Made by a program: the position numbers and the translations under genes. DNA of 35,404 nt from a virus. Each line of letters starts with the position of its first letter. The stretch's first letter is position 1. Shown here piece by piece: positions 5,257 through 28,807 of the stretch. The DNA lies in the IMG/VR virus record IMGVR_UViG_3300021964_007578, positions 1-35,404 of that record; one strand, given 5' to 3'. The notes beneath the pieces are model-generated. The model was given only the letters and a program-made list of their open reading frames with translations, had not been told where the DNA came from and searched no databases.

Positions 5257-5820
5257 CTATAAAATGTGATCCGCAATATTGAGCTTGATCAGATCTTTTG
5301 CGGTGAAGTACTGATCGCTTGGACTGTCAAAATACTTTTTAACCTGTGCTAAAGTATAACCAGTCGCTTCTCGTAAAATTTGATAGGCACGTTGTTCGCA
5401 GTTTTGATTTTCATGCATTGCTGCTTTCATGTCGTGCATCTTAGCGTCCATAGTATCGCTATGTTGATGGTTCATTATACCTGTGTTCTTTCCTATATAC
5501 CTTTCGCCTTGCTTACCACTTGCAAAGATTAAAAACCCTGCACTCATGATTGCACCAACACCTATTGTTCTTATATGATGATAACTTTGTTTCATAACAT
5601 CAATAAGTGCAAACGCTTCGTATAGGTCTCCACCATATGTGTTTACATATAAGGTAAGTGTTTTCTTTGGCTTCTTGTTTAAATTGGCAGAAACAATCCA
5701 CTTAATAGTTTGGCTGACGTTGTCATTAGCAATATCTCCACTTAGATAATGAATGTCATTATCGTGTAGACTCTTGTCTATTGCATCACTGGCTGTCCAA
5801 TTCTCGTACTTTGCTGGCAT
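5257..5820 (-). CDS. ClpP-like serine protease
   Basis: A 187-aa ClpP/crotonase-fold protease. The catalytic triad appears intact: Ser93 in GVGAIMSAGF (ClpP GxxxSMA), His118 in GIMNHQHS (ClpP MIHQP) and Asp169 in SPSDQYFTAKD (ClpP DRFxSAxEA). The oxyanion-side strand LYVNTYGGDLYEAFALID matches ClpP LxINSPGG. Length is close to cellular ClpP without a propeptide. In phages such enzymes can be capsid maturation proteases; here it lies among early-type genes under its own sigma70 promoter, so I favour a role in cytoplasmic proteolysis, perhaps with the ClpS and tmRNA also encoded here. That link is inference. Confidence 0.85.
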   Translation of the reverse strand: MPAKYENWTASDAIDKSLHDNDIHYLSGDIANDNVSQTIKWIVSANLNKKPKKTLTLYVNTYGGDLYEAFALIDVMKQSYHHIRTIGVGAIMSAGFLIFASGKQGERYIGKNTGIMNHQHSDTMDAKMHDMKAAMHENQNCEQRAYQILREATGYTLAQVKKYFDSPSDQYFTAKDLIKLNIADHIL

Positions 5821-6171: not shown

Positions 6172-6450
6172 ATGGACTTTTTAACATTTGTAAGCGAAGT
6201 TGGATTTCCAATTGCAGGCGCTATAGCCGCAGGCTTCTTTGTATTCACTACATTAAAATTTATTTTGGCTAGTGTAACAGGAAGTGTATGTGGCCTGCAG
6301 AATATGATTTCAGCATTAGATAATCGTGTACAAACAATGAATAACGATCTTGTTAAGATTGATGCATTAATGAGTTATGCTTTAAATGTAAAACCTAACA
6401 TAGATCGTATAGCTGCCAATGAAGGCAAAGAAGACGCAAGACGAGACTAA
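6172..6450 (+). CDS. Holin-like small membrane protein (copy A)
   Basis: A 92-aa protein with one membrane segment near the N-terminus (VGFPIAGAIAAGFFVFTTLKF) followed by a helical tail with heptad character (LQNMISALDNRVQTMNNDLVKIDALMSYAL). This N-in, one-TM plus coiled-coil layout resembles BhlA/UviB-type holins, which begin with a similar GFPI segment. The protein at 7059-7379 has the same layout and appears to be a paralog. It opens a plus-strand module preceded by a late-type promoter, which fits a lysis role, but no hydrolase lies inside the module. Holin function is inferred, not shown. Confidence 0.6.
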   Translation: MDFLTFVSEVGFPIAGAIAAGFFVFTTLKFILASVTGSVCGLQNMISALDNRVQTMNNDLVKIDALMSYALNVKPNIDRIAANEGKEDARRD

Positions 6451-7058: not shown

Positions 7059-7379
7059 ATGACAGCAGAATTAGCAGCAGCGATAAAAGACTTCGGCTTT
7101 CCTATAGTGGCTGCGATGGGTCTTGGATATTTTGTCTACTACGTATGGAAGTGGGTAACTACTGAGATTAAACCTGTATTGGGTCAAGCATCGGCCAAAC
7201 TAGTAGGATTAATAGATCGTATTCGTATGTTAGATAATGACATGATTAGACTGAATCAAAAGTTAAACATGGTATTAGAATTTAAAGAACAATACGAAAA
7301 AGTTACAGGTAAAAAACTAGATCTTGATGCAGACGAAATTGAAAAAGCTGTAAAAGCAAAACCTAGAAAGAAGAACTAG
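7059..7379 (+). CDS. Holin-like small membrane protein (copy B)
   Basis: A 106-aa protein with a single N-terminal membrane segment (FGFPIVAAMGLGYFVYYVWKW) then a helical tail (LVGLIDRIRMLDNDMIRLNQK) and a very basic C-terminus (KAVKAKPRKKN). It shares the GFPI membrane start and an LDN-containing coiled tail with the protein at 6172-6450. The basic tail is typical of holins. It is followed immediately (TAG then GTG) by the DUF3307 gene. Holin function is an inference from layout. Confidence 0.6.
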   Translation: MTAELAAAIKDFGFPIVAAMGLGYFVYYVWKWVTTEIKPVLGQASAKLVGLIDRIRMLDNDMIRLNQKLNMVLEFKEQYEKVTGKKLDLDADEIEKAVKAKPRKKN

Positions 7380-7798: not shown

Positions 7799-9859
7799 TC
7801 ATTTTGTTGTTGCAATGAACACTCCATTCCAATCTTTAGGTAACTTTTGTGTTTTCATATATTCACAACGTTCAATCCACATAGTATAATACCCTTCCAT
7901 CTTAGCATCAAAGTGTCTCGATAGTTTTTCACAAATCCATATTGCTTCATCAAACTTTTGTTTTTGATACAACTCATGCATTTCTTGATGCTGGCGTTGT
8001 GCTGTGCGCCATGCTGGTTTAGGATTGTCTAGCACTGTCCAAATACCAATACCTACAGTTTTACCTTTAACTGCTAGGTCGTCTACTTTTAAGTAGAAGA
8101 AGTCGTCTTTGGTTTGTTGATATGTTGCATCTCCTACTAGTAATAGGCAACCATATTCTTTACACTTAGATTCTATTCTTGCCGCTGTACTTACAGAGTC
8201 GCCAAGAACATCATAAGAGTGCCTTGCGGTGCTACCCATTTCGCCAAGGTAACCAAGGCCAGTATTAATACCGGCACCCATGCCAACGGGAGGACGTCCT
8301 TCATTTGTAATTTGTTCATTAAATTTCTCCACTGCTTTAAGCATATCTAATCCACATTGCACTGCGGTCTTTGGATGTTCTGGATCTTCAATTGGTGCAT
8401 TGTGTACATGCATACTTGCATCACCAATGTACTTAATAACCATACCATCGCTGTCTAATATAGGTTGTGTAATAGCGTCCATATAGCCATTCATAATTTT
8501 GGTTAGGCCTTTTACATCATCACCAAAACTTTCACCTAATGGTGTAAACCCACGCAAGTCTGAAAATAGAATACTAACTTCTTTCTTCATACCTTCTTTA
8601 ATAAGTGCTGGATTTTCTTGTAGCATACGCACCACTGTTGGTGATGCATACCCTGCAAATTGCTTCTTAATCTTTTGTTTTTCAAAGAATTCTACTACAA
8701 AACGGTTAAATGTAGCATGGAAACCTACTGCTGTGCCTACTAACAGTATCCAGCTCACATCCCATAGCTGTAAATGCCCTTTAAACAGCGTATAAGCGCC
8801 GTACAAGCACGTTGCGTACATAACAAGTACCAATGCACCCACTACGTAATACGGTGCTAAAACCGCTGCAATTATAAGAATAAGCCCAATTACGATACTA
8901 GCAGCATACTCTACAAATGTAGCATAATCAAAACGTACAATGTTATCGCCATTTACAATGGTCTGTAATGCTGTTGCAGTCATTATATGACTGTATTGTT
9001 CTCCGTTTGGAGTAGCAATAACTGGTGCAAGTCCTTCTGCTGTAATACCAATAATTACAATCTTGCCTTCCATTCCCCAAAAATAATCTTCTTCTGATGC
9101 ACTATAAACATCAAAGTTTTTGTTCCAACGCAACCAAATTCTACCATTTGGATCTGTTTGAATAGTTTGATACGCCGGCACACGCATAGCAATGATGCCA
9201 CCTTCGCCGGCTTTAACTTGATAACTAGGATCGCCTACAGCAACACGGATTGTTTCCATAGTGATACTTGGATATACTTCGTCACCTACACGCATTAGCA
9301 ATGGTAAGCGTCTTACAACACCATCTATTTCAGGTGCAGTATTAATTACTCCAACGCCTGCTGCGTTTTGACCTAGTAAAGGTATAGGACCTAACATGCC
9401 TGGCCATTCAAATAACCAAGGCATAGGATCTCCTATTTTAGCAACACCTCTTGGTACTGCATTTTTATTTGTTTGCGTTGTTCCTGTTTGTGCAATAACA
9501 ACACCATTGTTTAGCAACATCTGTGCTAGTTCAGTATCTCCACCTAGCCTATCATTCTCAGAAAATAGGATAGGCATAACAATAACGCCAGCACCATGCG
9601 CTCTTAAGTTTTCAATAATACCTGCTAATACATCACGCTTCCATGGCCATTGTCCGTACTTTTCTATAGATGCTTCGTCTATTTCTAATATAGCAATGTC
9701 TTTGGATAGTGGTTCTACTGTGTCATAACTTTGAATAAGATCAAAAGATTTGAGTCTTAAAGTCTGTTTTACATAGGGATCGTTGAACCCTAATATACTA
9801 ATAACCGCTAAGGTTAGAAGTGCTGTAGACCAATGTGTTATAATCTTTGACAGTTTCAT
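7799..9859 (-). CDS. CHASE2-domain adenylate/guanylate cyclase (class III)
   Basis: A 686-aa protein: N-terminal membrane segment (about 10-25), extracytoplasmic CHASE2 sensor (about 35-310; DIAILEIDEASIEKYGQWPW), three membrane helices (about 315-380), then a class III cyclase domain (about 425-620). Metal aspartates are Asp434 (LFSDLRGFT) and Asp480 (KYIGDASM); adenine-specifying Lys476 and Asp550 and transition-state Arg561 are present. The usual Asn before that Arg is Ser557. Expected product is cAMP from a periplasmic signal. A late-type promoter lies 5 nt before the ATG. FecR and CHASE2 proteins often co-occur in bacteria; here the FecR gene lies upstream in the same cluster. Confidence 0.9.
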   Translation of the reverse strand: MKLSKIITHWSTALLTLAVISILGFNDPYVKQTLRLKSFDLIQSYDTVEPLSKDIAILEIDEASIEKYGQWPWKRDVLAGIIENLRAHGAGVIVMPILFSENDRLGGDTELAQMLLNNGVVIAQTGTTQTNKNAVPRGVAKIGDPMPWLFEWPGMLGPIPLLGQNAAGVGVINTAPEIDGVVRRLPLLMRVGDEVYPSITMETIRVAVGDPSYQVKAGEGGIIAMRVPAYQTIQTDPNGRIWLRWNKNFDVYSASEEDYFWGMEGKIVIIGITAEGLAPVIATPNGEQYSHIMTATALQTIVNGDNIVRFDYATFVEYAASIVIGLILIIAAVLAPYYVVGALVLVMYATCLYGAYTLFKGHLQLWDVSWILLVGTAVGFHATFNRFVVEFFEKQKIKKQFAGYASPTVVRMLQENPALIKEGMKKEVSILFSDLRGFTPLGESFGDDVKGLTKIMNGYMDAITQPILDSDGMVIKYIGDASMHVHNAPIEDPEHPKTAVQCGLDMLKAVEKFNEQITNEGRPPVGMGAGINTGLGYLGEMGSTARHSYDVLGDSVSTAARIESKCKEYGCLLLVGDATYQQTKDDFFYLKVDDLAVKGKTVGIGIWTVLDNPKPAWRTAQRQHQEMHELYQKQKFDEAIWICEKLSRHFDAKMEGYYTMWIERCEYMKTQKLPKDWNGVFIATTK

Positions 9860-9864
9860 ACACC

Positions 9865-9872
9865 TATTTATC
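9865..9872 (-). promoter_or_regulatory. Late promoter GATAAATA, 5 nt before the cyclase ATG
   Basis: GATAAATA on the minus strand, then GGTGT, then ATG at 9859. The T4-type late motif this close to the start predicts a leaderless or nearly leaderless mRNA. Confidence 0.65.
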
Positions 9873-9878
9873 TACGGA

Positions 9879-10097
9879 TCAATGATCGTAAATATTCGGA
9901 CCGTCTTGCATTTTTACAGGTTTGCAATATGCTGTTATTCTATGTTCTGGCGGAACTAAGTATTTGTTTCCGTAATTACCATACTGCATAGGTATACGTT
10001 TAGCGTAATATTGGCACACATCTATGCTTCTAAAATACATAGGTGAAGGTTGCTGTACATCTGCTATTAATATTACTAACATAAAGGCATGTATCAA
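9879..10097 (-). CDS. Small secreted two-cysteine protein
   Basis: A 72-aa protein: MIHAFMLVILIADVQQPSPM, a short hydrophobic N-terminus, then SIDVCQYYAKRIPMQYGNYG and AYCKPVKMQDG. It has the same S/D-x-x-C middle and C-K-P end as the 1719-1907 protein and resembles 3815-4006. It abuts the gene at 10098 and lies between the curli cluster and the cyclase gene. Function unknown; export is plausible. Confidence 0.65.
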   Translation of the reverse strand: MIHAFMLVILIADVQQPSPMYFRSIDVCQYYAKRIPMQYGNYGNKYLVPPEHRITAYCKPVKMQDGPNIYDH

Positions 10098-10580
10098 CTA
10101 TAGTACCCCCCTCGCTTTTGCTGCTAGTACTACTATAAAGATTGCAAATCCGCCAACAACAACGATGCCAAGAACTATAGCAACAGCTTCTAATACTTTA
10201 CGTCTGCGTTCTTCTTGATCGTAAATTGCTTTTTGTCTTTTCTTTCTAATGTCGCCTTCGGTTTTTAAAAGCTCTTCCCATGCACTTGGACCTCTAGTAA
10301 AACTGATAATCTGTTTTAGTTCAGCTCTCATATCTTCTGCTTTTTTCTTAGCCATAAAGATTTGCATAGCTTCTTCTTCAACCGAACCTGCTTGAAATAG
10401 TTTTTTAAATAATGGCGGTTTCTTATTATACTCTTCTGCTTTTTTAATATCTGAAACAGCACCCATCCAACGACCTAAGTCGCTTGCCATGGATTCTATT
10501 TCACGTCCGGCTGCGAAGCCGGCTTTAATTGTGTTAAATGCACCGGTTGCCATAGCAACGGCTGAGATGGGATCTATCAA
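10098..10580 (-). CDS. Conserved T4-like marine phage protein with C-terminal TM, TTG start
   Basis: A 160-aa protein. MIDPISAVAMATGAFNTIKAGFAAGREIESMASDLGRW-type N-terminal helices are followed by a basic region (PPLFKKLFQAGSVEEEAM, ISFTRGPSAWEELLKTEGDI, KKRQKAIYDQEERRRK) and a C-terminal membrane helix (AIVLGIVVVGGFAIFIVVLA). I recall this protein as common to marine T4-like phages, unassigned. The start is TTG with GGAG 7 nt upstream. A late-type promoter (10610-10617) precedes it, pointing to a virion or assembly role. Confidence 0.75.
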   Translation of the reverse strand: MIDPISAVAMATGAFNTIKAGFAAGREIESMASDLGRWMGAVSDIKKAEEYNKKPPLFKKLFQAGSVEEEAMQIFMAKKKAEDMRAELKQIISFTRGPSAWEELLKTEGDIRKKRQKAIYDQEERRRKVLEAVAIVLGIVVVGGFAIFIVVLAAKARGVL

Positions 10581-10609
10581 AGTTTCGCTCCTTTGTCTAT
10601 GTTCACCAG

Positions 10610-10617
10610 TATTTATG
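10610..10617 (-). promoter_or_regulatory. T4-like late promoter CATAAATA
   Basis: CATAAATA on the minus strand about 30 nt before the TTG start at 10580, with AAAGGAG between. One mismatch to T4 TATAAATA. Confidence 0.6.
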
Positions 10618-10623
10618 CGATTT

Positions 10624-11916
10624 TTAGTTTTGTGTTACTGTAGTTGTTGCACAGCCGTTTGAATTGCCGCAATGTTGGCTAATTGAATATGTTTGTGATG
10701 TTGAACTATCTTGTGTAAGGTCAAGTGTTGCACTATGACCTGTCATGCTAACACTTGCATTATGATTGCCTGTGCCGTCTTGTGTAATTCCAACAGTTTG
10801 ATCGCTACCAACTGCAATTTCTACATAGTGTGATCCTGATCCTTGCTGATATAAATCGATATCATTATCGTCACCTTGAACGCTTAGGAATGCTTTCTTA
10901 TCTCCGTCATTCAGTTGACTTGCTAAAATATTGTTGCTATCTCCATCAAGATCTAATGCAAAGAAATGACCATTATTTCCGATACCATTGTTATGCTTTT
11001 GTGTAATGCTTAATACATTAGAGTCACCATTAACATCAAACTCAACTCTGTTGTCGTCTGCTGTAGCGGCGTCACCTTGAGTAACAGTTGTTGTATTAGA
11101 GTCTCCTGTAACATCAAACAGTATTGCATTGTTGTTACCTCTTTGTGTTAATGTTGTATCATTGTTATTACCAATGATGTCAGCGTTTACTATATTATTA
11201 GTTGTTGAACCAACACCTGCTATAAGGTTATCACTTCCGTCTTGAACTATATCAAGCTCGTTATCATTACCAACCTGGTTGATGTATATACCACTACCAT
11301 CATGTGTTACTGCTCTTGATGTTGTAATTTGTGTAGTCTGTGCTGAACTTATGCTTGATGTGTATGATGGTGCTGTGGTTGAGATATCAGTTGAGGCATT
11401 CACATAGACCGTACCAGCAGTAGCATTAGGCACATACCATAACTGCCTCAACACTGCCCCACCACTCCATTCCGAGAACCATCGTTCATAGGTGTAGGTC
11501 TCTCCTGCCTGAAGTGTGATCGTGCCTGTCCTTGTTGCTGGAGCATGTAGACCAGACCAATCATCAATCACGGTGGTGCCATCTATCTTCAACAGTGAAC
11601 CATCGTCATCTTGATTGTAGAAAGTTACTGTGACGCTGTCACCTGCTGACCCATTGGACGGAATCGGCACAGTGATGTAACCATCAAGGTGAACAACCAC
11701 ATAGTCACTCCTGCCTGAGTCCAATACAACACCACCGCCCCAATCGTAGTTCATTGTGCTGTCTGACAAAGTGCCTGATGAAAGTAAGGTGTTTGATGAT
11801 GTGGGACAAGGCCAACTTGGACAATACCAAGTTTCGTAATTAACATCTGCCAATGCTTGTATAGGTAATAATAATAATAAAAATAATAAACTATTTCTGA
11901 ATAATGTCAATATCAT
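10624..11916 (-). CDS. PA14-like domain fused to curlin repeats, secreted
   Basis: A 430-aa protein beginning at ATG 11916 (GGAG upstream), with a signal peptide ending PIQALA. Residues about 25-165 form a PA14/GLEYA-like beta-sandwich: HLDGYITVPIPSNG, YNQDDDGSLLKIDGTTVIDDW, ITLQAGETYTYERWFSEWSG and VLRQLWYVP. The rest carries curlin-like repeats (IYINQVGNDNELDIVQDGSD, TTLTQRGNNN, VGITQDGTGNHN) ending TTTVTQN. Curlin repeats form cross-beta fibres; PA14-like domains bind glycans. The PA14-like coding part (about 11341-11820) is near 50% G+C against about 30% in the repeats, which suggests recent acquisition. It overlaps the FecR gene by 26 bp. Proposed: fibre subunit with a binding head exported via CsgG. 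Confidence 0.85.
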   Translation of the reverse strand: MILTLFRNSLLFLLLLLPIQALADVNYETWYCPSWPCPTSSNTLLSSGTLSDSTMNYDWGGGVVLDSGRSDYVVVHLDGYITVPIPSNGSAGDSVTVTFYNQDDDGSLLKIDGTTVIDDWSGLHAPATRTGTITLQAGETYTYERWFSEWSGGAVLRQLWYVPNATAGTVYVNASTDISTTAPSYTSSISSAQTTQITTSRAVTHDGSGIYINQVGNDNELDIVQDGSDNLIAGVGSTTNNIVNADIIGNNNDTTLTQRGNNNAILFDVTGDSNTTTVTQGDAATADDNRVEFDVNGDSNVLSITQKHNNGIGNNGHFFALDLDGDSNNILASQLNDGDKKAFLSVQGDDNDIDLYQQGSGSHYVEIAVGSDQTVGITQDGTGNHNASVSMTGHSATLDLTQDSSTSQTYSISQHCGNSNGCATTTVTQN

Positions 11917-13024
11917 TACTGCCGTCTCCAAGTGAGTAGTCTCTTGTTTCAAAATCTGATTGTTGTAAATTAATGTTATAACCGTTCTGTTGATCTAATA
12001 TTAATTCTACTTGCATACCTGTTCCGCTATCACGTCTAAATACCCAGTTAGGATTTTGATTGTAAAGTTCAATACCTGTTACAGGATCTTTTCCGTATTT
12101 ACTTTTTGCTTTTGATTTAGATAAACTATCACCTAGTATCTTTGATAACATTTCGTTAAGTTGATCAAGTACATTAACAAGGAAGTTTTGATCTAAATAG
12201 TTTGAATCTAAGTCTGTTTGCCAAAGATCTGGATCTTCATCAAGTTGATTTATATCTAAACCGTCGTACTCTAAAAAATCAAATCCTAAGAAGTCTGCTA
12301 GTTCTACTGCTCTTTCTCTTTCTAGCTCGTACTCAATTTCTTTAGGCCTACGGATAATAAGCAGGTTATCAATAAGTGATTCATTAATGTCAATGATAAT
12401 AGGATCTAAAGGATTTGACTCTGGTACATCTACAACTGTTGCTTGAAATGCTTTGTTTAGAATAACTTGGCCAGCATCTGATTCTACTGATATCTCACCT
12501 ACAACACAGATGCGCTTTGTTCCTACCGCTGAACAACTTGGTAAAAGAATAATTGTTGAACTTCCTGTTTCATCAACAGTCATTGTAAAGTCAGTACCGC
12601 GTACACCAATAGTAGCGGTTGGTGTAGTGATTTTTATATCTTGCCTACTGTTCTTTGCAATCTGTCCTGATGCATATCTAATAGTTCCAAAAGATGCTTT
12701 GAGGGCAAGTTTACCTTTTGAAGTACTAGGATCATACACAAACTCATCAATAATTAGTTTACTGTTCTGTGTTACATCAACTCTAGTTTCGTCTACAAAT
12801 TCTATAGCAGTTTTACCTTGGCCTGTACGAACGGTATCGTAACTTACTATAGTACTACCTTTTTCAGAAGTTAGTTTTTCTCCTGCTTGTCGTTCAATAA
12901 TAGTATTACCAATCTGCTGGGTTACATTTCCGATAGAAGCAACATTCGCCATCGCGGGTACGGTGATAGTTAGACAAACTATCATGCCTGCACGTAACAG
13001 AATTTTGTCCAGCAGCCGGATCAT
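11891..13024 (-). CDS. Secreted FecR-domain protein
   Basis: A 377-aa exported protein. N-terminal hydrophobic segment (LLRAGMIVCLTITVPAMA), then a FecR domain with the strongly conserved ITTPTATIGVRGTDFTM and preceding DTVRTGQGKTAIEFVDETRV and GTIRYASGQIA segments. The C-terminal half is acidic and linker-like (DEDPDLWQTDLDSNYLDQ), and its last residues (GDGSNDIDIIQK) look like a curlin strand. In bacteria FecR domains sense signals in the periplasm; here no sigma factor is adjacent, but a CHASE2 cyclase lies in the same cluster. I infer a surface-anchoring or sensory partner of the curlins. It starts 4 bp after the curlin gene. Confidence 0.85.
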   Translation of the reverse strand: MIRLLDKILLRAGMIVCLTITVPAMANVASIGNVTQQIGNTIIERQAGEKLTSEKGSTIVSYDTVRTGQGKTAIEFVDETRVDVTQNSKLIIDEFVYDPSTSKGKLALKASFGTIRYASGQIAKNSRQDIKITTPTATIGVRGTDFTMTVDETGSSTIILLPSCSAVGTKRICVVGEISVESDAGQVILNKAFQATVVDVPESNPLDPIIIDINESLIDNLLIIRRPKEIEYELERERAVELADFLGFDFLEYDGLDINQLDEDPDLWQTDLDSNYLDQNFLVNVLDQLNEMLSKILGDSLSKSKAKSKYGKDPVTGIELYNQNPNWVFRRDSGTGMQVELILDQQNGYNINLQQSDFETRDYSLGDGSNDIDIIQK

Positions 13025-13028
13025 AAAG

Positions 13029-13796
13029 TTAATCCGTTTGCGTAATGTCTATTGTTGCATCGTTTCCTACAGTAGTAAGACTCAACACTTTATCTTCAAC
13101 ACCTGATTGTGTAATGTTCGCAATCGAACCACCACCTTTCATATTAACTGTCATACTGTGACCATTAACATCACCAGTTCCTGATTGTGTAATTGCAACT
13201 GTATTAGCAACCCCACTTTCAACTGATGTGCTTGATGCTGTGTTACCGCCGGCGCCAACGCCTGTTAGTGTTGTTGAGCCATCGTTACTCATATCAAAGT
13301 CTAAATCAGCATTTTGAGCATTAAGTGTAAAAGTTAGAGTATCTGCATTACTGTTATTAGCCAAATCAATTGTACCCACAAAGTTCTGTGCGTCACCTGA
13401 TCCACCAATTGTTGCTGTAATGTCAGCACTTCCGCCTGTTACATCAATACTTAATGATACTGTTTCACAGTTACCAGCACCAGCGTTATCACAGTCTAAG
13501 TCGACTTGGTTACTGTTACCAGTTAAGTTAATGTTACCTGTATAGGTATTACCTTTAATGGTAGTTTCAATAACGTTAGTGTCACCTACTTGTGATACAG
13601 AAAACGTCATATCATTACCTTGCAACAAAACTCCTGTTGCATTAGTACCTAATACGTTATTTGTTCCGTCTTGTGTTACATCTAAGTCTAAGTCATTACC
13701 AGATTGCTGTATGTATATGTCATTAGCATAAGCTGGAGATATCAACCCTAAACCAAGAATAAAAAGACTACTTGCTACTATTGTCTTTAGTTTCAT
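13029..13796 (-). CDS. Curlin-repeat fibre protein (CsgA/CsgB-like)
   Basis: About 255 aa. Signal peptide (VASSLFILGLGLISPAYA) then repeats with the curlin pattern I-x-Q-x-G-x-x-N: DIYIQQSGNDLDLDVTQDGT, FSVSQVGDTNVIE, VAITQSGTG, IANITQSGV and a terminal IDITQTD. A middle Asn/Thr/Gly-rich part (LNAQNADLDFDMSNDG) has weaker repeats and one possible disulfide pair (DCDNAGAGNCE). It is longer than E. coli CsgA (151 aa). I choose the second of two ATGs (13796) because GGGAG lies 5 nt before it; the first is only 2 nt away. It overlaps the csgG end. Expected to polymerise outside the cell after export. Confidence 0.87.
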   Translation of the reverse strand: MKLKTIVASSLFILGLGLISPAYANDIYIQQSGNDLDLDVTQDGTNNVLGTNATGVLLQGNDMTFSVSQVGDTNVIETTIKGNTYTGNINLTGNSNQVDLDCDNAGAGNCETVSLSIDVTGGSADITATIGGSGDAQNFVGTIDLANNSNADTLTFTLNAQNADLDFDMSNDGSTTLTGVGAGGNTASSTSVESGVANTVAITQSGTGDVNGHSMTVNMKGGGSIANITQSGVEDKVLSLTTVGNDATIDITQTD

Positions 13797-14802
13797 CATC
13801 GCTCCCTTGACTGTCTATTCCGTCAGCCAATTTTTTAATTAACGGATCGTTATGCCAACACATGTTGTCTGCGTCACAATAGTAACTTGTTACACCTGGA
13901 TACTGCTTATTAAATTCATCTTCTGGTAATTTAATAATAGCTTCATGTCTCTGGTGTATAGTCGGACGCGACTCCGGTATTAACATACTCTCTAGTTCAC
14001 TTTCCCTCTTGAACTTCCAAAGTTTCTTTTCTTCACCTTTCATTATCAACTCAACTATTGCTGCTTCAATTGCTGTACGAACTGCATAGTTGGTTGGTTC
14101 GTTTACTGCTGCGCCTACTTCAATTTCAAGTGCCTTGGTGCCCATATCTAAGAAACGAAATACATCGCCTCCGCTACTATAACTTGCAATTTTCTTTTCA
14201 GTTGCCACAGTTAGGAGTACTTCTCCTGTTTGTGTACTGATTATGCGCATCGCCACAGTAACTTGGTCTGTTCTATAAGATGTCTGACCGCCAATGCCAA
14301 AATATCTAGCACCAACACCCCCACTCTCCATATTAGAATCGTAGCCAACAACTCCACCTTCTAATATCAGCCCCGCAAAGAGCAGTGGTTTTAAATCAGT
14401 CGGATCGTTTTCGTAAACTTCTCTAGTTGATCTAATTAACTGTCTTTCTTTAACTAGATTATCTAAGCCTACTCGTTCCACAACTTGGAACCACTTTCCT
14501 CCACCCACTTCTTTCAGAGCATTTATAACCCAAACCTCAGCACCTTGAGTAACCGCACTACTGAGCTGACTAAAACTGTCATTAGGCTTACGTTGCCCTG
14601 TTTTGTCTAGAAAACTGTAAATTGCAATTGTTATTTTTGGTCCATCGATAGCTGGCACGGTCTCCAATACACTTTGGTATGGACTCTCCGCTTTCACGGG
14701 TGGTGTCCAATCCTTTTTTGTATAGGTGGCCGCGCAACCTGTTATTGCTATAGCCAGGAACACAAATAACAAACTTCTAATTAAACTAATCAATCCTGTC
14801 AT
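13768..14802 (-). CDS. csgG: CsgG-family curli secretion lipoprotein
   Basis: A 344-aa lipoprotein: signal peptide with lipobox AITGC (Cys23), then a CsgG/HfaB fold with ITIAIYSFLDKTGQRKPN, AVTQGAEVWVINALKEVGGG, WFQVVERVGLDNLVKERQLI, LLFAGLILEGGVVGYDSN and VTVAMRIISTQTGEVLLTV. CsgG forms the nonameric outer-membrane pore of type VIII secretion. It is longer than E. coli CsgG (277 aa) owing to a C-terminal extension with two cysteines (YYCDADNMCWHND). TAATG overlap with csgF. No csgE homologue is visible, so gating may differ. Confidence 0.93.
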   Translation of the reverse strand: MTGLISLIRSLLFVFLAIAITGCAATYTKKDWTPPVKAESPYQSVLETVPAIDGPKITIAIYSFLDKTGQRKPNDSFSQLSSAVTQGAEVWVINALKEVGGGKWFQVVERVGLDNLVKERQLIRSTREVYENDPTDLKPLLFAGLILEGGVVGYDSNMESGGVGARYFGIGGQTSYRTDQVTVAMRIISTQTGEVLLTVATEKKIASYSSGGDVFRFLDMGTKALEIEVGAAVNEPTNYAVRTAIEAAIVELIMKGEEKKLWKFKRESELESMLIPESRPTIHQRHEAIIKLPEDEFNKQYPGVTSYYCDADNMCWHNDPLIKKLADGIDSQGSDDETKDNSSK

Positions 14803-15257
14803 TAAAATCCAAAACCTGTCAATGGTACAGTGATTGTCGTAACGGTTCCATCTTCTTCTGTAATGGTGATGCTAATAGTATCTGTGGTAGTATCTTTCAC
14901 CCAGTATATTGTAGCACCTTCGATTTCAGCTGTGCCACTGTTAGCACCTGTGTCATCGAACATACCGTCGACTAATTGCTTAGAAAGTTGTGCATAGATT
15001 CTACTCTCAACGTTGTTAAGAAACTTCGCTAAGTTAGTAGACTCTGCTTCACGCTTTGCTCTCGCAGCATCTGATTCAGCCTTGTCCTTAATATCTTTTT
15101 TACGAGTGAACTGTAATTGTTCAATACTCAAGACATGGCTGGAGTACCCTTGACCTGAAAATGATGGATTCTTAAATTTAAAGACCTCATCACCTGCAAG
15201 GGCAGGTGCTGTAATCAGTAAACTCAGAATAATAGATGCAGAAATTACATTTTTCAT
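14802..15257 (-). CDS. csgF: CsgF-family curli assembly protein
   Basis: A 151-aa protein with a signal peptide (IILSLLITAPALA) and a CsgF-type start, FKFKNPSFSGQGYSSHVLSI, corresponding to the pore-plugging N-terminal peptide of CsgF (NPNFGG...L...A). A charged helix follows (DKAESDAARAKREAESTNLA) and a beta-rich C-terminus (DTISITITEEDG). CsgF docks on CsgG and couples fibre nucleation to the pore. It is first of the leftward csg cluster with GGAG 6 nt before its ATG and late-type promoters upstream. Confidence 0.88.
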   Translation of the reverse strand: MKNVISASIILSLLITAPALAGDEVFKFKNPSFSGQGYSSHVLSIEQLQFTRKKDIKDKAESDAARAKREAESTNLAKFLNNVESRIYAQLSKQLVDGMFDDTGANSGTAEIEGATIYWVKDTTTDTISITITEEDGTVTTITVPLTGFGF

Positions 15258-15288
15258 AGATCGCTCCTAGTAGTTGTCGCGTCAAAAC

Positions 15289-15333
15289 TATTTATTATCC
15301 ATAGCAAAGGCAACATCTACGTACATATTTATC
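15289..15333 (-). promoter_or_regulatory. Two T4-like late promoter motifs upstream of csgF
   Basis: AATAAATA (15289-15296) and GATAAATA (15326-15333) on the minus strand, about 32 and 69 nt before the csgF start. Either could drive csgF-csgG-curlin-fecR. The exact start site cannot be told. Confidence 0.55.
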
Positions 15334-15339
15334 ATACAG

Positions 15340-15357
15340 GTGTAAAAATTTTTACAC
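15340..15357. promoter_or_regulatory. 18-bp perfect palindrome, possible operator
   Basis: GTGTAAAAATTTTTACAC, a perfect inverted repeat between the divergent csgF and Fis-like genes, adjacent to late-type promoters for both. The A-tract centre would suit a minor-groove or HTH dimer, such as the neighbouring Fis-type protein. A hairpin would have no loop, so an operator is more likely than a terminator. Confidence 0.5.
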
Positions 15358-15400
15358 TTACTATTATAAAACGCCAAGTTTTACAATGTTAACGCTACGT

Positions 15401-15408
15401 TATAAATA
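15401..15408 (+). promoter_or_regulatory. T4-consensus late promoter TATAAATA
   Basis: Perfect TATAAATA on the plus strand, 31 nt before the ATG at 15439, with GGAAGGAAAC as ribosome-binding site. It is the only exact T4-consensus late motif I found placed ahead of a gene. Confidence 0.7.
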
Positions 15409-15438
15409 CAATATCATAAGCACTGGAAGGAAACATTT

Positions 15439-15681
15439 ATGAGCAAGGAAGAACTTACTGAACAGGAGGCGATGTGGGAGTTATTGGAAACAACGTTTCC
15501 TGGCAAAGATCACAATTTAGTAATTAACTTACCTAATGAACTAGCAGAATTAGAGAAAAACAAACTTATGCAAGTTCTCGAGTTTCACGATTGGAATAAA
15601 TCAAGAGCAGCCAAAGATTTGGGCATAGGCCGAACAAATCTAATTGCTAAAATAAAAAAATATGAATTGATTCAGGATTAA
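15439..15681 (+). CDS. Fis-type (HTH_8) DNA-binding protein
   Basis: An 80-aa protein whose last 42 residues form a Fis/NtrC C-terminal helix-turn-helix: ELEKNKLMQVLEFHDWNKSR, AAKDLGIGRTNLIAKIKKYEL. In this family the pattern is L-x(4)-N-x-x-AAxxLGIxRxTLxxKLKxY. The N-terminal half is acidic and lacks the AAA+ or receiver domains of NtrC-type activators, as in Fis (98 aa). It is the only plus-strand gene in its region and diverges from csgF across a palindrome. I infer it regulates the csg cluster or phage late genes. Its stop codon overlaps that of the convergent gene at 15678. Confidence 0.85.
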   Translation: MSKEELTEQEAMWELLETTFPGKDHNLVINLPNELAELEKNKLMQVLEFHDWNKSRAAKDLGIGRTNLIAKIKKYELIQD

Positions 15682-16762: not shown

Positions 16763-16770
16763 TATTTATC
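16763..16770 (-). promoter_or_regulatory. Late promoter GATAAATA, 5 nt before ATG
   Basis: GATAAATA on the minus strand, TTAGT, then ATG at 16757. Same spacing as at 9865, 30915 and 31651. Predicts a leaderless late mRNA. Confidence 0.65.
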
Positions 16771-17464
16771 CAAGTTTTGGAAATAACATATCTGTGCAGA
16801 ACTTATCTACATCTGCTTCGTTAAGTCCTAAGCTCTTCATAGTACGTGGAGTGTGTGGATTTTGTTGCTGATTATGGCAGTAATAATCTTGTGAAGCCTG
16901 TACTAATGCAGTATCGCCTTCGCCTTTAGTAAGTCCTACTTCAGCAAAATATGTATGTAAATTATCTAATGCAAGATCGATTATAGCAACTGCTTCTTCT
17001 TCTGTGCTTACATTGCCGGCAGCAATCATGCTTGGACTGAAAATGTTCTGAGCCCATTCAGGTAGTTCACGTTTTTTACTAGGAATAAAATCTTCTACTG
17101 CTTCTGCATAACCTTGTATCATAGGATGATTAGGATCACTACTAGCACTAACATCATGAAATGCACCGGTCATCTTCTTCTTACCTGCTATAACATCAAA
17201 GCCGTAAATAGGTGCTGGGTTATCTAATGTTGGAAAAATGCACACATGCATCATCCAGAGGCCTTTTGTATCACGAGCGTCTACAACATCAATATGAGCC
17301 CTACGAATATCGTCGTTACGCCAAACACGGTTAATCCAACTACCGTCTGGTTTATTAAAGTAATCAAGTCCTGGCTCTGAAAATTCTGTTGCTTTGTCAT
17401 CAAAAATTTTGATAATTTCATTTTGACAGTCAATTAATCTGTCCCATATAACACTATCTGTCAC
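16766..17464 (-). CDS. pcyX: Ferredoxin-dependent bilin reductase (PcyX/PcyA-like)
   Basis: A 232-aa member of the FDBR family. Matching segments: LWMMHVCIFPTLDNPAPIYG followed by FDVIAGKKKMTGAFHDVS (with the His and the catalytic Asp of PcyA's GxDxVA region), and the C-terminal QDYYCHNQQQNPHTP, then DVDKFCTDMLFP. FDBRs reduce biliverdin IXalpha using ferredoxin. It looks closer to PcyA than to PebS; PcyX, known from uncultured marine phages, makes phycoerythrobilin. GTG start behind GGAG, overlapping the heme oxygenase gene by 11 bp, so the two are coupled. Product specificity needs a phylogeny. Confidence 0.87.
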   Translation of the reverse strand: MTDSVIWDRLIDCQNEIIKIFDDKATEFSEPGLDYFNKPDGSWINRVWRNDDIRRAHIDVVDARDTKGLWMMHVCIFPTLDNPAPIYGFDVIAGKKKMTGAFHDVSASSDPNHPMIQGYAEAVEDFIPSKKRELPEWAQNIFSPSMIAAGNVSTEEEAVAIIDLALDNLHTYFAEVGLTKGEGDTALVQASQDYYCHNQQQNPHTPRTMKSLGLNEADVDKFCTDMLFPKLG

Positions 17465-18002
17465 CTTTATGCTCCATCAACTCTTTGAAAAGTTCAGTGG
17501 CAAAGTCAAAGCAAACTTTTGCTTCGTCTGCCATATTATCATTGCACTTCGCTCTAATCTTATCTTTGTAATCGTTGATGTCGATATCTCCAAACTTGTA
17601 CATTTCTCCATTGCCTGGTACACGTTTTGCAATCATCTGTCCGCCACTTAGGTCTCCCATGTGTCTAACATAGACATGTGCCATTAGCCTATTAGGATCG
17701 TCCATAATATCTTTCAAATACATTACATACTTGTGAGTAGTTTTTAGTGTAGGTGGTCTGTCTTCTTTTTTCCATAGTTCTAAGAAGTCAGCCATAATTC
17801 TCTTTGAACGTATTAGTTCAGGTACGTCATCTAGTAAGCCGTGTTGTTGAGCCATTAGCTCTAGTAGTTCATAAGCTGGAAACTGATTCCACAAATAAAG
17901 AGCATAAAACTCTGGATCAATTTTTCCAGAGAACATAACCTTTACAAATTCTTGACGCTCAGCGTTAGTATGATTTTCTTTTGTTAATTCTTTTAAGCTC
18001 AT
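17454..18002 (-). CDS. ho1: Heme oxygenase
   Basis: A 182-aa heme oxygenase. Proximal heme ligand His11 in KENHTNAERQ and the distal-helix motif YVRHMGDLSGGQMIAKRVPG (Asp117, Gly residues over heme) are intact. It converts heme to biliverdin, CO and Fe2+ with ferredoxin electrons. It is slightly shorter than cyanobacterial HO1 (about 240 aa), as phage versions often are. It precedes pcyX with an 11-bp overlap, forming a heme-to-bilin operon. AGGAG lies 9 nt upstream of the ATG; a TATAAT-like element (about 18024-18029) is present without a clear -35. Confidence 0.93.
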   Translation of the reverse strand: MSLKELTKENHTNAERQEFVKVMFSGKIDPEFYALYLWNQFPAYELLELMAQQHGLLDDVPELIRSKRIMADFLELWKKEDRPPTLKTTHKYVMYLKDIMDDPNRLMAHVYVRHMGDLSGGQMIAKRVPGNGEMYKFGDIDINDYKDKIRAKCNDNMADEAKVCFDFATELFKELMEHKGDR

Positions 18003-18400: not shown

Positions 18401-18853
18401 TTACTTACTGTCGATCACTGAACTATCGTTAATCTTAATAGTCTTAGGCTTTAATGCTTCTGGTACTTCACGTACTAAATGCACATTCAGCATACCTAGT
18501 TCAAGGTTTGCGTTTGCTACCTTAACGTGGTCAGCAAGTGTGAACTCTCTACGGAAGTTGCGTCCGCCAATACCTTTGTGTAGATAATTGACATCTTCAT
18601 CTCCTTTAGGAGCAGTTCCCTCAATCTTTAATTGATCACCGTCTGTAGTGATTGAAAGATTGTCCATACCAAAGCCGGCAACTGCTAACGAAATCATATA
18701 TTCGTCATCGTTGATTTGTGCTATGTTGTATGGGGGATAACCATTTCCGTTTGGACTATTTGCGAACTGTCTTTCCATTTCGTTGAATAGTCTGTCAAAG
18801 CCAATTGTAGCTCTGTGGAAGTTTGGTAGGTCTAGAGTTGTTATTCTTGTCAT
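18401..18853 (-). CDS. Small heat shock protein (Hsp20/IbpA-like)
   Basis: A 150-aa alpha-crystallin-domain chaperone. The N-terminus (FHRATIGFDRLFNEMERQFA) and core (YPPYNIAQINDDEYMISLAV, GIGGRNFRREFTLADHVKV, LNVHLVREVPEALKPKTIKI) match IbpA-type proteins; the last holds the conserved V-PE-x-KP. Such proteins hold unfolded polypeptides and are near-universal in marine T4-like phages. AAGGAG precedes the ATG. A GATAAATA late-like motif lies upstream at 18943. Confidence 0.94.
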   Translation of the reverse strand: MTRITTLDLPNFHRATIGFDRLFNEMERQFANSPNGNGYPPYNIAQINDDEYMISLAVAGFGMDNLSITTDGDQLKIEGTAPKGDEDVNYLHKGIGGRNFRREFTLADHVKVANANLELGMLNVHLVREVPEALKPKTIKINDSSVIDSK

Positions 18854-28362: not shown

Positions 28363-28437
28363 TGGCAGGCAAACAAGGAATCGAACCTCAGTTTACAGTT
28401 TTGGAGACTGTCGTGTTACCACTACACCATTCACCCT
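28363..28437 (-). tRNA. tRNA-Trp (CCA), imperfect acceptor stem
   Basis: A 75-nt cloverleaf with anticodon stem ACAGT/ACTGT and loop CTCCAAA (anticodon CCA), T-arm TGAGG-TTCGATT-CCTTG, and an encoded CCA end. The acceptor stem AGGGTGA/TTTGCCT has two central mismatches (G-G and U-U) and a G-U pair, so it may be degenerate or tolerate repair. It lies 3-10 nt after the tmRNA 3' region on the same strand and is probably cut from one precursor. Confidence 0.7.
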
Positions 28438-28439
28438 TT

Positions 28440-28740
28440 GTCAATAAAGTGCAACTTTTCTGTTGCCAGGTAAGTTGCCAACCCCGTTACCTAGTTAGAC
28501 TAGGCAGCAAGAGCAAAATTATTGTTTGCGTCTATAAAGTTGCTTGATTTACGGTCATCGCCTACCGGTAACTCCACGTTCTCTCATACATCAGTCGATC
28601 CTAGTTCGCCCCCATCATAAACACATTGGGATTGTATTGTTCCACGGACGGTCTTGATACAAACATCGTCCAATGTGCTTATGGTGGAGGCGCGGGGTAC
28701 CGCCCCCCGGTCCTGTCTGTCGTTGATTGGCTTCAACGTT
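28440..28740 (-). ncRNA. ssrA: Permuted two-piece tmRNA (ssrA)
   Basis: Minus strand, acceptor piece first: T-stem-like CGGGG/CCCCG, then CGCCTCC-ACCA ending at 28682. An intervening segment (28614-28681) with a long stem follows, then the coding piece from GGGGGCG (28613), which pairs with CGCCTCC. GAACTAGGATCGAC is the usual tmRNA 5' signature. The tag frame GCA...GCC-TAG (28529-28500) encodes ANNNFALAA. It is followed by a hairpin and an H-type pseudoknot (GGTAA/TTACC with GCAAC/GTTGC). Order acceptor-spacer-coding is the circular permutation known in alphaproteobacteria and some cyanobacteria. Outer ends are approximate. Driven by the promoter at 28750-28778. The T-loop GGCGGTA is unusual. 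Confidence 0.92.
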
Positions 28741-28749
28741 ACAGTTATA

Positions 28750-28778
28750 TTTATACTATCATATTATTGGTTTGTCAA
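28750..28778 (-). promoter_or_regulatory. Sigma70-type promoter of the tmRNA
   Basis: TTGACA (28773-28778), 17-nt spacer, TATAAA (28750-28755) on the minus strand, placing the start near 28740-28743. The -10 is within TATAAATA, so the same site could also serve as a T4-like late promoter. Confidence 0.82.
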
Positions 28779-28780
28779 CC

Positions 28781-28807
28781 AAAAAAATAGGCCCCGAAGG
28801 ACCTATT
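28781..28807 (-). terminator. Intrinsic terminator after the cold-shock gene
   Basis: Stem AATAGGTCC/GGGCCTATT with a TTCG tetraloop followed by TTTTTTT on the minus strand, 18 bp after the stop of the gene at 28825. Separates the csp operon from the tmRNA promoter. Confidence 0.92.

Follow-up and report, generated by a model that had tools for sequence, protein, structure and literature searches.

A rearranged member of the pelagiphage curli cluster carrying a FecR-domain protein and a CHASE2 cyclase

Results

A conserved operon for curli-type secretion

We analyzed a 35,404-nucleotide stretch of DNA from a marine T4-like phage, IMG/VR record IMGVR_UViG_3300021964_007578, positions 1 to 35,404 (hereafter the window), for a gene cluster related to the curli or type VIII secretion system (T8SS). 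Positions 7799–15257 form a single leftward operon in which most neighbouring genes share short overlaps and the rest nearly abut. It comprises csgF, csgG, the gene for curlin 1, a FecR gene, the gene for a second, PA14-bearing curlin, two small open reading frames (ORFs) and a CHASE2 cyclase gene. Apart from the two small ORFs, which are listed further below, the encoded proteins and their Pfam matches (E-values) are:

14802–15257, minus strand: CsgF, exported (PF10614, 5.2e-17)
13768–14802, minus strand: CsgG, outer-membrane lipoprotein pore (PF03783, 2.2e-49)
13029–13799, minus strand: curlin 1, with CsgA/B-like repeats and a signal peptide, conserved in relatives (PF07012, 2.4e-05)
11891–13024, minus strand: FecR-domain protein with a signal peptide and a likely C-terminal curlin-type strand, GDGSNDIDIIQK (PF04773, 2.3e-11)
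10624–11916, minus strand: curlin 2, with a signal peptide, a PA14 lectin-like ectodomain and curlin repeats (PF07691, 3.6e-07; PF07012, 1.8e-12)
7799–9859, minus strand: CHASE2 class III nucleotide cyclase (CHASE2, 1.2e-42; Guanylate_cyc, 2.4e-17)

A preliminary description of this DNA had proposed a leftward block of CsgF, CsgG, two curlins, FecR and a cyclase, and Pfam confirmed each of these proteins, with E-values of about 2e-05 or lower for all named proteins of 7799–15681. Sec-type signal sequences were present in CsgF, curlin 1, FecR and curlin 2, and a lipobox in CsgG. For curlin 2, the ATG at 11916 was taken as start instead of the listed TTG at 11952.

Scanning viral contigs yielded 210 CsgG relatives, 80 of which were fetched as loci (L004, L005 and so on). 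In these 80 viral loci and in the pelagiphages HTVC008M and Melnitz (EXVC044M), the order CsgF–CsgG–curlin 1–FecR–curlin 2–cyclase was kept wherever it was readable, bearing out the co-occurrence that the preliminary description had suggested surveying. Using blastn, we found the same block in Melnitz and HTVC008M, whose records annotate the same gene order. No match was returned by megablast for window positions 1–25000 against the phage collection, and a search for the Gp23 capsid protein matched no genome, controls included, and thus has no bearing on phage type. Ratios of nonsynonymous to synonymous substitution rates (dN/dS), all calculated for the window versus L004, were 0.125 for csgF, 0.131 for csgG, 0.209 for curlin 1, 0.155 for FecR and 0.081 for the cyclase; this range of 0.08–0.21 argues against a decaying remnant.

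The window is a rearranged member of a real, conserved and already described pelagiphage cluster. Wittmers et al. (2022, PMC9599517) reported the complete set, FecR and adenylate cyclase included, along with its transfer from one phage family to another and its wide occurrence in marine viruses, so the central claim is not new; the linkage of FecR and cyclase to curli genes, presented as a novelty in the preliminary description, had been published there. Points that go beyond that description are the PA14 domain, the curlin-like C-terminal tail of FecR and a conserved pair of small membrane proteins.

Export pore

The N-terminal peptide of CsgF, FKFKNPSFSGQGY, is the counterpart of the peptide by which E. 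coli CsgF docks to CsgG. Alignment to CsgF in the PDB was weak (residues 8–52, E 0.13); the docking motif in the form [FYW]x[NSDH]PxFxGxG[YF] occurred in 72/81 CsgF relatives, and a stricter form in 18/81. CsgG aligned to PDB CsgG with an E-value of 7e-51 over residues 12–275, and 75 of its 83 relatives carry a lipobox. The model of HfaB, the CsgG-family pore of the Caulobacter holdfast anchor, was matched more weakly (4.8e-11) than the CsgG model (1.2e-53), which scored far above it, with both matches below the curated NCBIfam cut-offs.

Curlins with constant repeats and changing ectodomains

Curlin 1 is presumed to be the main fibre subunit. For curlin 2, structure modeling gave a beta-solenoid for the repeats and an ectodomain with weak matches to PA14 carbohydrate-binding domains. 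The two structure models used in this study were of middling quality (mean predicted local distance difference test values of 59 and 60), and our use of them was confined to the FecR domain and the solenoid of the curlin, with the FecR tail excluded.

The two halves of curlin 2 evolve differently. The repeats had a dN/dS of 0.129, while change in the ectodomain was saturated, with 43/161 aligned residues identical between the window and L004. For the same two loci, CsgG was 90% and the curlin 2 repeats 74% identical, while the ectodomains gave no BLAST match, and four pairs with >70% identity in the repeats showed no detectable ectodomain match. Apart from the start methionine, every invariant column of curlin 2 falls within the repeats. 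PA14 is also present in curlin 2 of HTVC008M, was not matched in curlin 2 of Melnitz and L004, and several relatives encode short versions devoid of the ectodomain. An alternative ectodomain at L042:8891-10384 and L004:11885-13339, likewise without a PA14 match, looks like a different alpha/beta domain. Constant repeats joined to a changing ectodomain fit an adhesive tip shaped by diversifying pressure or by recombination, and curlin 2 is a probable tip or decorating adhesin. As far as the compared literature shows, the ectodomain swap between close relatives is new.

A FecR-domain protein with a curlin-like tail

The FecR domain is periplasmic and of the anti-sigma type. Its model resembled the cell-surface signalling domain of PupR (2.8 Å over 111 residues, Z 10.7) and, in 5ix9, a domain for cell-surface anchoring (2.0 Å over 74 residues, Z 8.6), with block confidence of 78–87 over residues 31–110; searching PDB sequences with the FecR profile gave no match. 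At the C-terminus, 46 of 47 distinct phage FecR proteins carry the motif N-x-[AVIL]-x-[AVIL]-x-Q, as found in the curlin repeat, and a looser form of it appeared in about 1% of shuffled FecR tails. When scored with a curlin-repeat profile, all 45 phage FecR proteins examined had their best match at the extreme C-terminus. The same type of ending was present in none of nine bacterial FecR genes located beside CHASE2, some of whose frames are cut by the locus end. Judging from these motif and profile matches, phage FecR likely ends in a curlin-type strand, a feature that appears new relative to the literature compared.

A profile search of genome contigs for bacterial relatives of FecR returned three good matches. 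Each was on a short contig that held the phage cluster, and we read these as phage contigs in bacterial bins; the rest of the matches were remote FecR domains. Contigs with the phage curli cluster occurred in metagenome-assembled genomes named Flavobacteriaceae, Pirellulales and Rhodobacteraceae (L084, L085, L086, L120–L123), with four csgF contigs in the Rhodobacteraceae bin. These are probably phage contigs binned with bacteria.

A CHASE2 cyclase with an exchanged catalytic domain

In the cyclase, the active site comprises the metal-binding Asp434 and Asp480, the substrate Lys476, Asp550, Arg561 and Ser557, which replaces Asn. The metal-binding Asp, Lys476 and Arg561 were invariant in 26 phage cyclases. 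These fall into two types by their active-site pair, Ser/Asn in 20/26 and Asp/Ser in 6/26, the latter including the window and Melnitz. Asn at the transition-state position was found in 51/51 readable bacterial CHASE2 cyclases and in the 20 phage relatives. Between types, identity to the window was 56–62% in CHASE2 and 33–38% in the catalytic domain; within the type of the window, it was 68–94% and 79–94%, respectively. It follows from these values that the catalytic domain was replaced by another while the CHASE2 sensor in front of it stayed conserved, an event that is new as far as the literature we compared shows. Accordingly, the cyclase domain of the window is of the Melnitz and not the HTVC008M type. 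The metal-binding and Arg residues are retained, and nucleotide cyclase activity is likely.

Late-type promoter motifs

Two motifs of the bacteriophage T4 late-promoter type lie between csgF and a diverging gene:

15288–15295, minus strand: AATAAATA, upstream of csgF
15401–15408, plus strand: TATAAATA, upstream of the helix-turn-helix (HTH) gene

Of 52 distinct operons, 28 have the T4-type late-promoter core NATAAATA upstream, compared with about three expected. Over the whole window, ATAAATA occurred nine times versus 13.7 expected and was not enriched; we rely solely on the enrichment ahead of the operon in relatives. A simple sigma-70 promoter scan gave 53 hits versus 41.6 expected, little above chance. 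From these motifs, the operon is probably used late in infection; the upstream enrichment is, within the literature compared, a new observation.

Membrane pair, passengers and neighbouring genes

Further genes within or next to the operon are:

6172–6450, plus strand: small one-helix membrane protein 1 (phrog_18771, 1.5e-30)
7059–7379, plus strand: small one-helix membrane protein 2 (phrog_18771, 1.9e-30)
9879–10097, minus strand: 72-residue ORF with a hydrophobic N-terminus, probably a passenger (dN/dS 0.065)
10098–10580, minus strand: small membrane protein, probably a passenger (phrog_32327, 9e-15)
15439–15681, plus strand: Fis-type HTH_8 protein, diverging from the operon (PF02954, 5.4e-14)

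Of 76 loci that extend far enough upstream, 71 have the paralogous phrog_18771 pair (~93 residues each) directly before csgF; the window, L004 and L010 have it relocated beyond the cyclase on the opposite strand. By this conserved placement, the pair belongs to the predicted curli module. Among 50,697 phage records, membrane protein 2 matched exactly the six HTVC008M/Melnitz records that carry this CsgG. One further CsgG match (38% identity) was OR851715.1, an unannotated record of 1499 bases assigned to Salmonella phage S.Kent 1-2-1 and possibly host DNA. In podophages, one or two histidine kinases have been reported before csgF (PMC9599517). The phrog_18771 proteins at that place in the loci examined here gave no kinase family match and are too short for a kinase. 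The label is, therefore, probably wrong for the pair, which probably corresponds to the reported ‘histidine kinases’.

Homologues of the two small ORFs were found among the viral loci (phmmer) only in L004, the nearest relative, and the HTH_8 gene only in the window and L004–L006. Since they are confined to the window and its closest loci, we do not count these three genes as core. The preliminary description had suggested a full system of export, sensing and regulation. The conserved order, export signals and dN/dS values support its export, fibre and sensor module, which is under selection, while the Fis-type regulator lies outside the conserved set.

Elsewhere in the window, a ferredoxin-dependent bilin reductase (PF05996) adjoins a heme oxygenase (PF01126) at 16766–18002, a phage bilin pathway pair near the curli cluster. 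A transfer-messenger RNA (tmRNA) at 28409–28791, adjacent to a tRNA-Trp, matched the alphaproteobacterial (RF01849) and permuted tmRNA families; a tmRNA is present in Melnitz, too. For a glutamine riboswitch, nothing above threshold was found in the window, which further contains genes for a ClpP-like protease (5257–5820) and Hsp20 (18401–18853).

Discussion

Relation to known systems

Curli genes in marine phages have been interpreted in several ways. CsgF, CsgG and a curli-associated protein were reported with a proposed role in sibling capture (Zaragoza-Solas et al. 2020, PMC7029224), and a lysis pore was proposed for Melnitz, with csgA and csgB stated to be missing (Buchholz et al. 2022, PMC9004378). 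The window shares CsgF, CsgG, both curlins, FecR, the adenylate cyclase and the CsgE-less state with the pelagiphage T8SS of HTVC008M and Melnitz. It is set apart by its membrane pair, which is on the opposite strand past the cyclase and not, as normally, before csgF, by an HTH_8 gene that diverges from csgF and by two small ORFs inserted before the cyclase.

Bacterial curli systems (E. coli csgBAC–csgDEFG and alphaproteobacterial operons) have in common with the phage cluster CsgG, CsgF with its docking peptide and curlin repeats; to these, the phage cluster adds FecR, the PA14-curlin and the CHASE2 cyclase, while CsgE was not found. A counterpart for the sensing half exists in the Burkholderia BiofilmReg operon, which pairs FecR with a CHASE2 kinase and whose interruption yielded a strain without biofilm (PMC5192318). 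Both pairs place an exported FecR-domain protein beside a CHASE2 sensor; the Burkholderia pair, linked to biofilm, has a histidine kinase output and a FecR with LysM, whereas the phage pair has a cyclase output and a FecR with a curlin-like tail. FecR also lay within about 1.5 kb of CHASE2 in 9/60 bacterial loci. On this comparison, the phage module looks like a joining of curli export with FecR–CHASE2 sensing.

A proposed mechanism and its alternatives

With moderate confidence, we propose that the operon encodes a late curli fibre that is exported, bears a variable lectin-like tip and is connected by FecR to the CHASE2 cyclase. Both curlins would exit through CsgG–CsgF and polymerise as sticky amyloid fibres on the infected cell, where curlin 2 would display its variable carbohydrate-binding domain. 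FecR, positioned at the base of the fibre or in the periplasm, may use its curlin-like tail to sense the traffic or anchoring of curlins and signal to CHASE2, upon which the cyclase would produce a cyclic nucleotide inside the infected cell. The likely benefit would be that neighbouring cells are held or competing phages blocked; such aggregation and superinfection block, also raised in the preliminary description, had already been hypothesised in the published papers.

Several observations weigh against this proposal. CsgE (PF10627) was detected in none of four related records (Melnitz, HTVC008M and two long viral contigs), with a positive E. coli control, in agreement with its reported absence from the cluster in the preliminary description. 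Published pelagiphage and alphaproteobacterial systems are likewise without CsgE, indicating that it is not required in the wider family. Clumping was not seen by the authors of the Melnitz study (PMC9004378), and none of five alphaproteobacterial csgF neighbourhoods with CsgG and curlins, a small sample, matched FecR or a CHASE2 cyclase, leaving the exact coupling with no cellular precedent among them. In many relatives, only 12–17 bases separate NATAAATA from the predicted start, and the motif may not act as a promoter in every relative. The FecR tail motif is short, curlin-repeat profile scores on it are low (median 0.7 bits) and the structure model is unconfident there. Ser557 occupies the transition-state Asn position in the cyclase of the window and its clade, which lowers the activity claim and leaves homology untouched, as the family profile match stands. 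Lastly, no cyclic nucleotide monophosphate (cNMP)-binding protein was found in the same four phage records, so the receiver of any cyclic AMP (cAMP) would be a host protein. Given this result and the Ser substitution, cAMP signalling is uncertain.

The last two points also underlie an alternative in which the fibre works and the CHASE2 cyclase of the window clade no longer makes cAMP, serving instead as a structural or nucleotide-binding partner. The Asn retained in all 51 bacterial and 20 phage relatives and the lack of a detected cNMP receptor in four phages speak for it; the complete conservation of Lys476, Arg561 and the metal-binding Asp across 26 phage sequences, a catalytic domain at least as conserved within the clade (79–94% identical to the window) as CHASE2 (68–94%) and the dN/dS of 0.081 make it rather unlikely. 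Slightly less probable still is a CsgG–CsgF pore repurposed for lysis timing, pinholin-like or secretin-like, without a fibre. That model was put forward with structure models for Melnitz (PMC9004378), and small one-helix membrane proteins, adjoining tail genes in HTVC008M and Melnitz and the late-type motif would suit it. It assumed, however, that csgA/B are absent, yet two curlin genes are conserved and annotated in the Melnitz record; moreover, the CsgF docking peptide is retained, the window has separate endolysin-like genes, and FecR, the CHASE2 cyclase and the swapping ectodomain remain unexplained.

The same tail-gene neighbourhood and late-type motif could indicate that the curlin-like proteins are virion components, for example particle fibres, as the preliminary description had considered. 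All secreted parts, however, carry Sec-type signals and are co-conserved with an outer-membrane exporter, virions of such phages assemble in the cytoplasm, and we recognised no gene for a tail tape measure protein next to the cluster in the window, so we regard virion fibres as improbable. Earlier work suggested that the operon opens a pore through which large nutrients or siderophores are taken up, with an iron-related regulatory role for FecR (PMC7029224 and PMC9599517), a view that draws on FecR-domain homology. We consider it very improbable, as it leaves the conserved curlins, CsgF and the lectin-like domain unexplained, the FecR of the window lacks the cytoplasmic anti-sigma part, its signal peptide preceding the domain, and FecR domains outside iron uptake occur beside CHASE2.

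The new details, read from sequence comparison, support a late fibre whose tip can be exchanged, together with a sensor linked to that fibre, rather than a lysis pore. A bolder version of this fibre-and-sensor proposal, doubtful at present, is that FecR acts as a hybrid sensor, becoming part of the fibre by its own curlin strand, with the CHASE2 cyclase gauging assembly or tension directly. If true, the phage would carry a signalling system that gauges its fibre and in which both the lectin tip and the cyclase output are exchangeable. Our data correct the published inference that curlins are missing in Melnitz and probably also that kinases precede csgF, and the details described here make the use of curli clusters by phages testable part by part, through the tip domain, the FecR tail and the cyclase.

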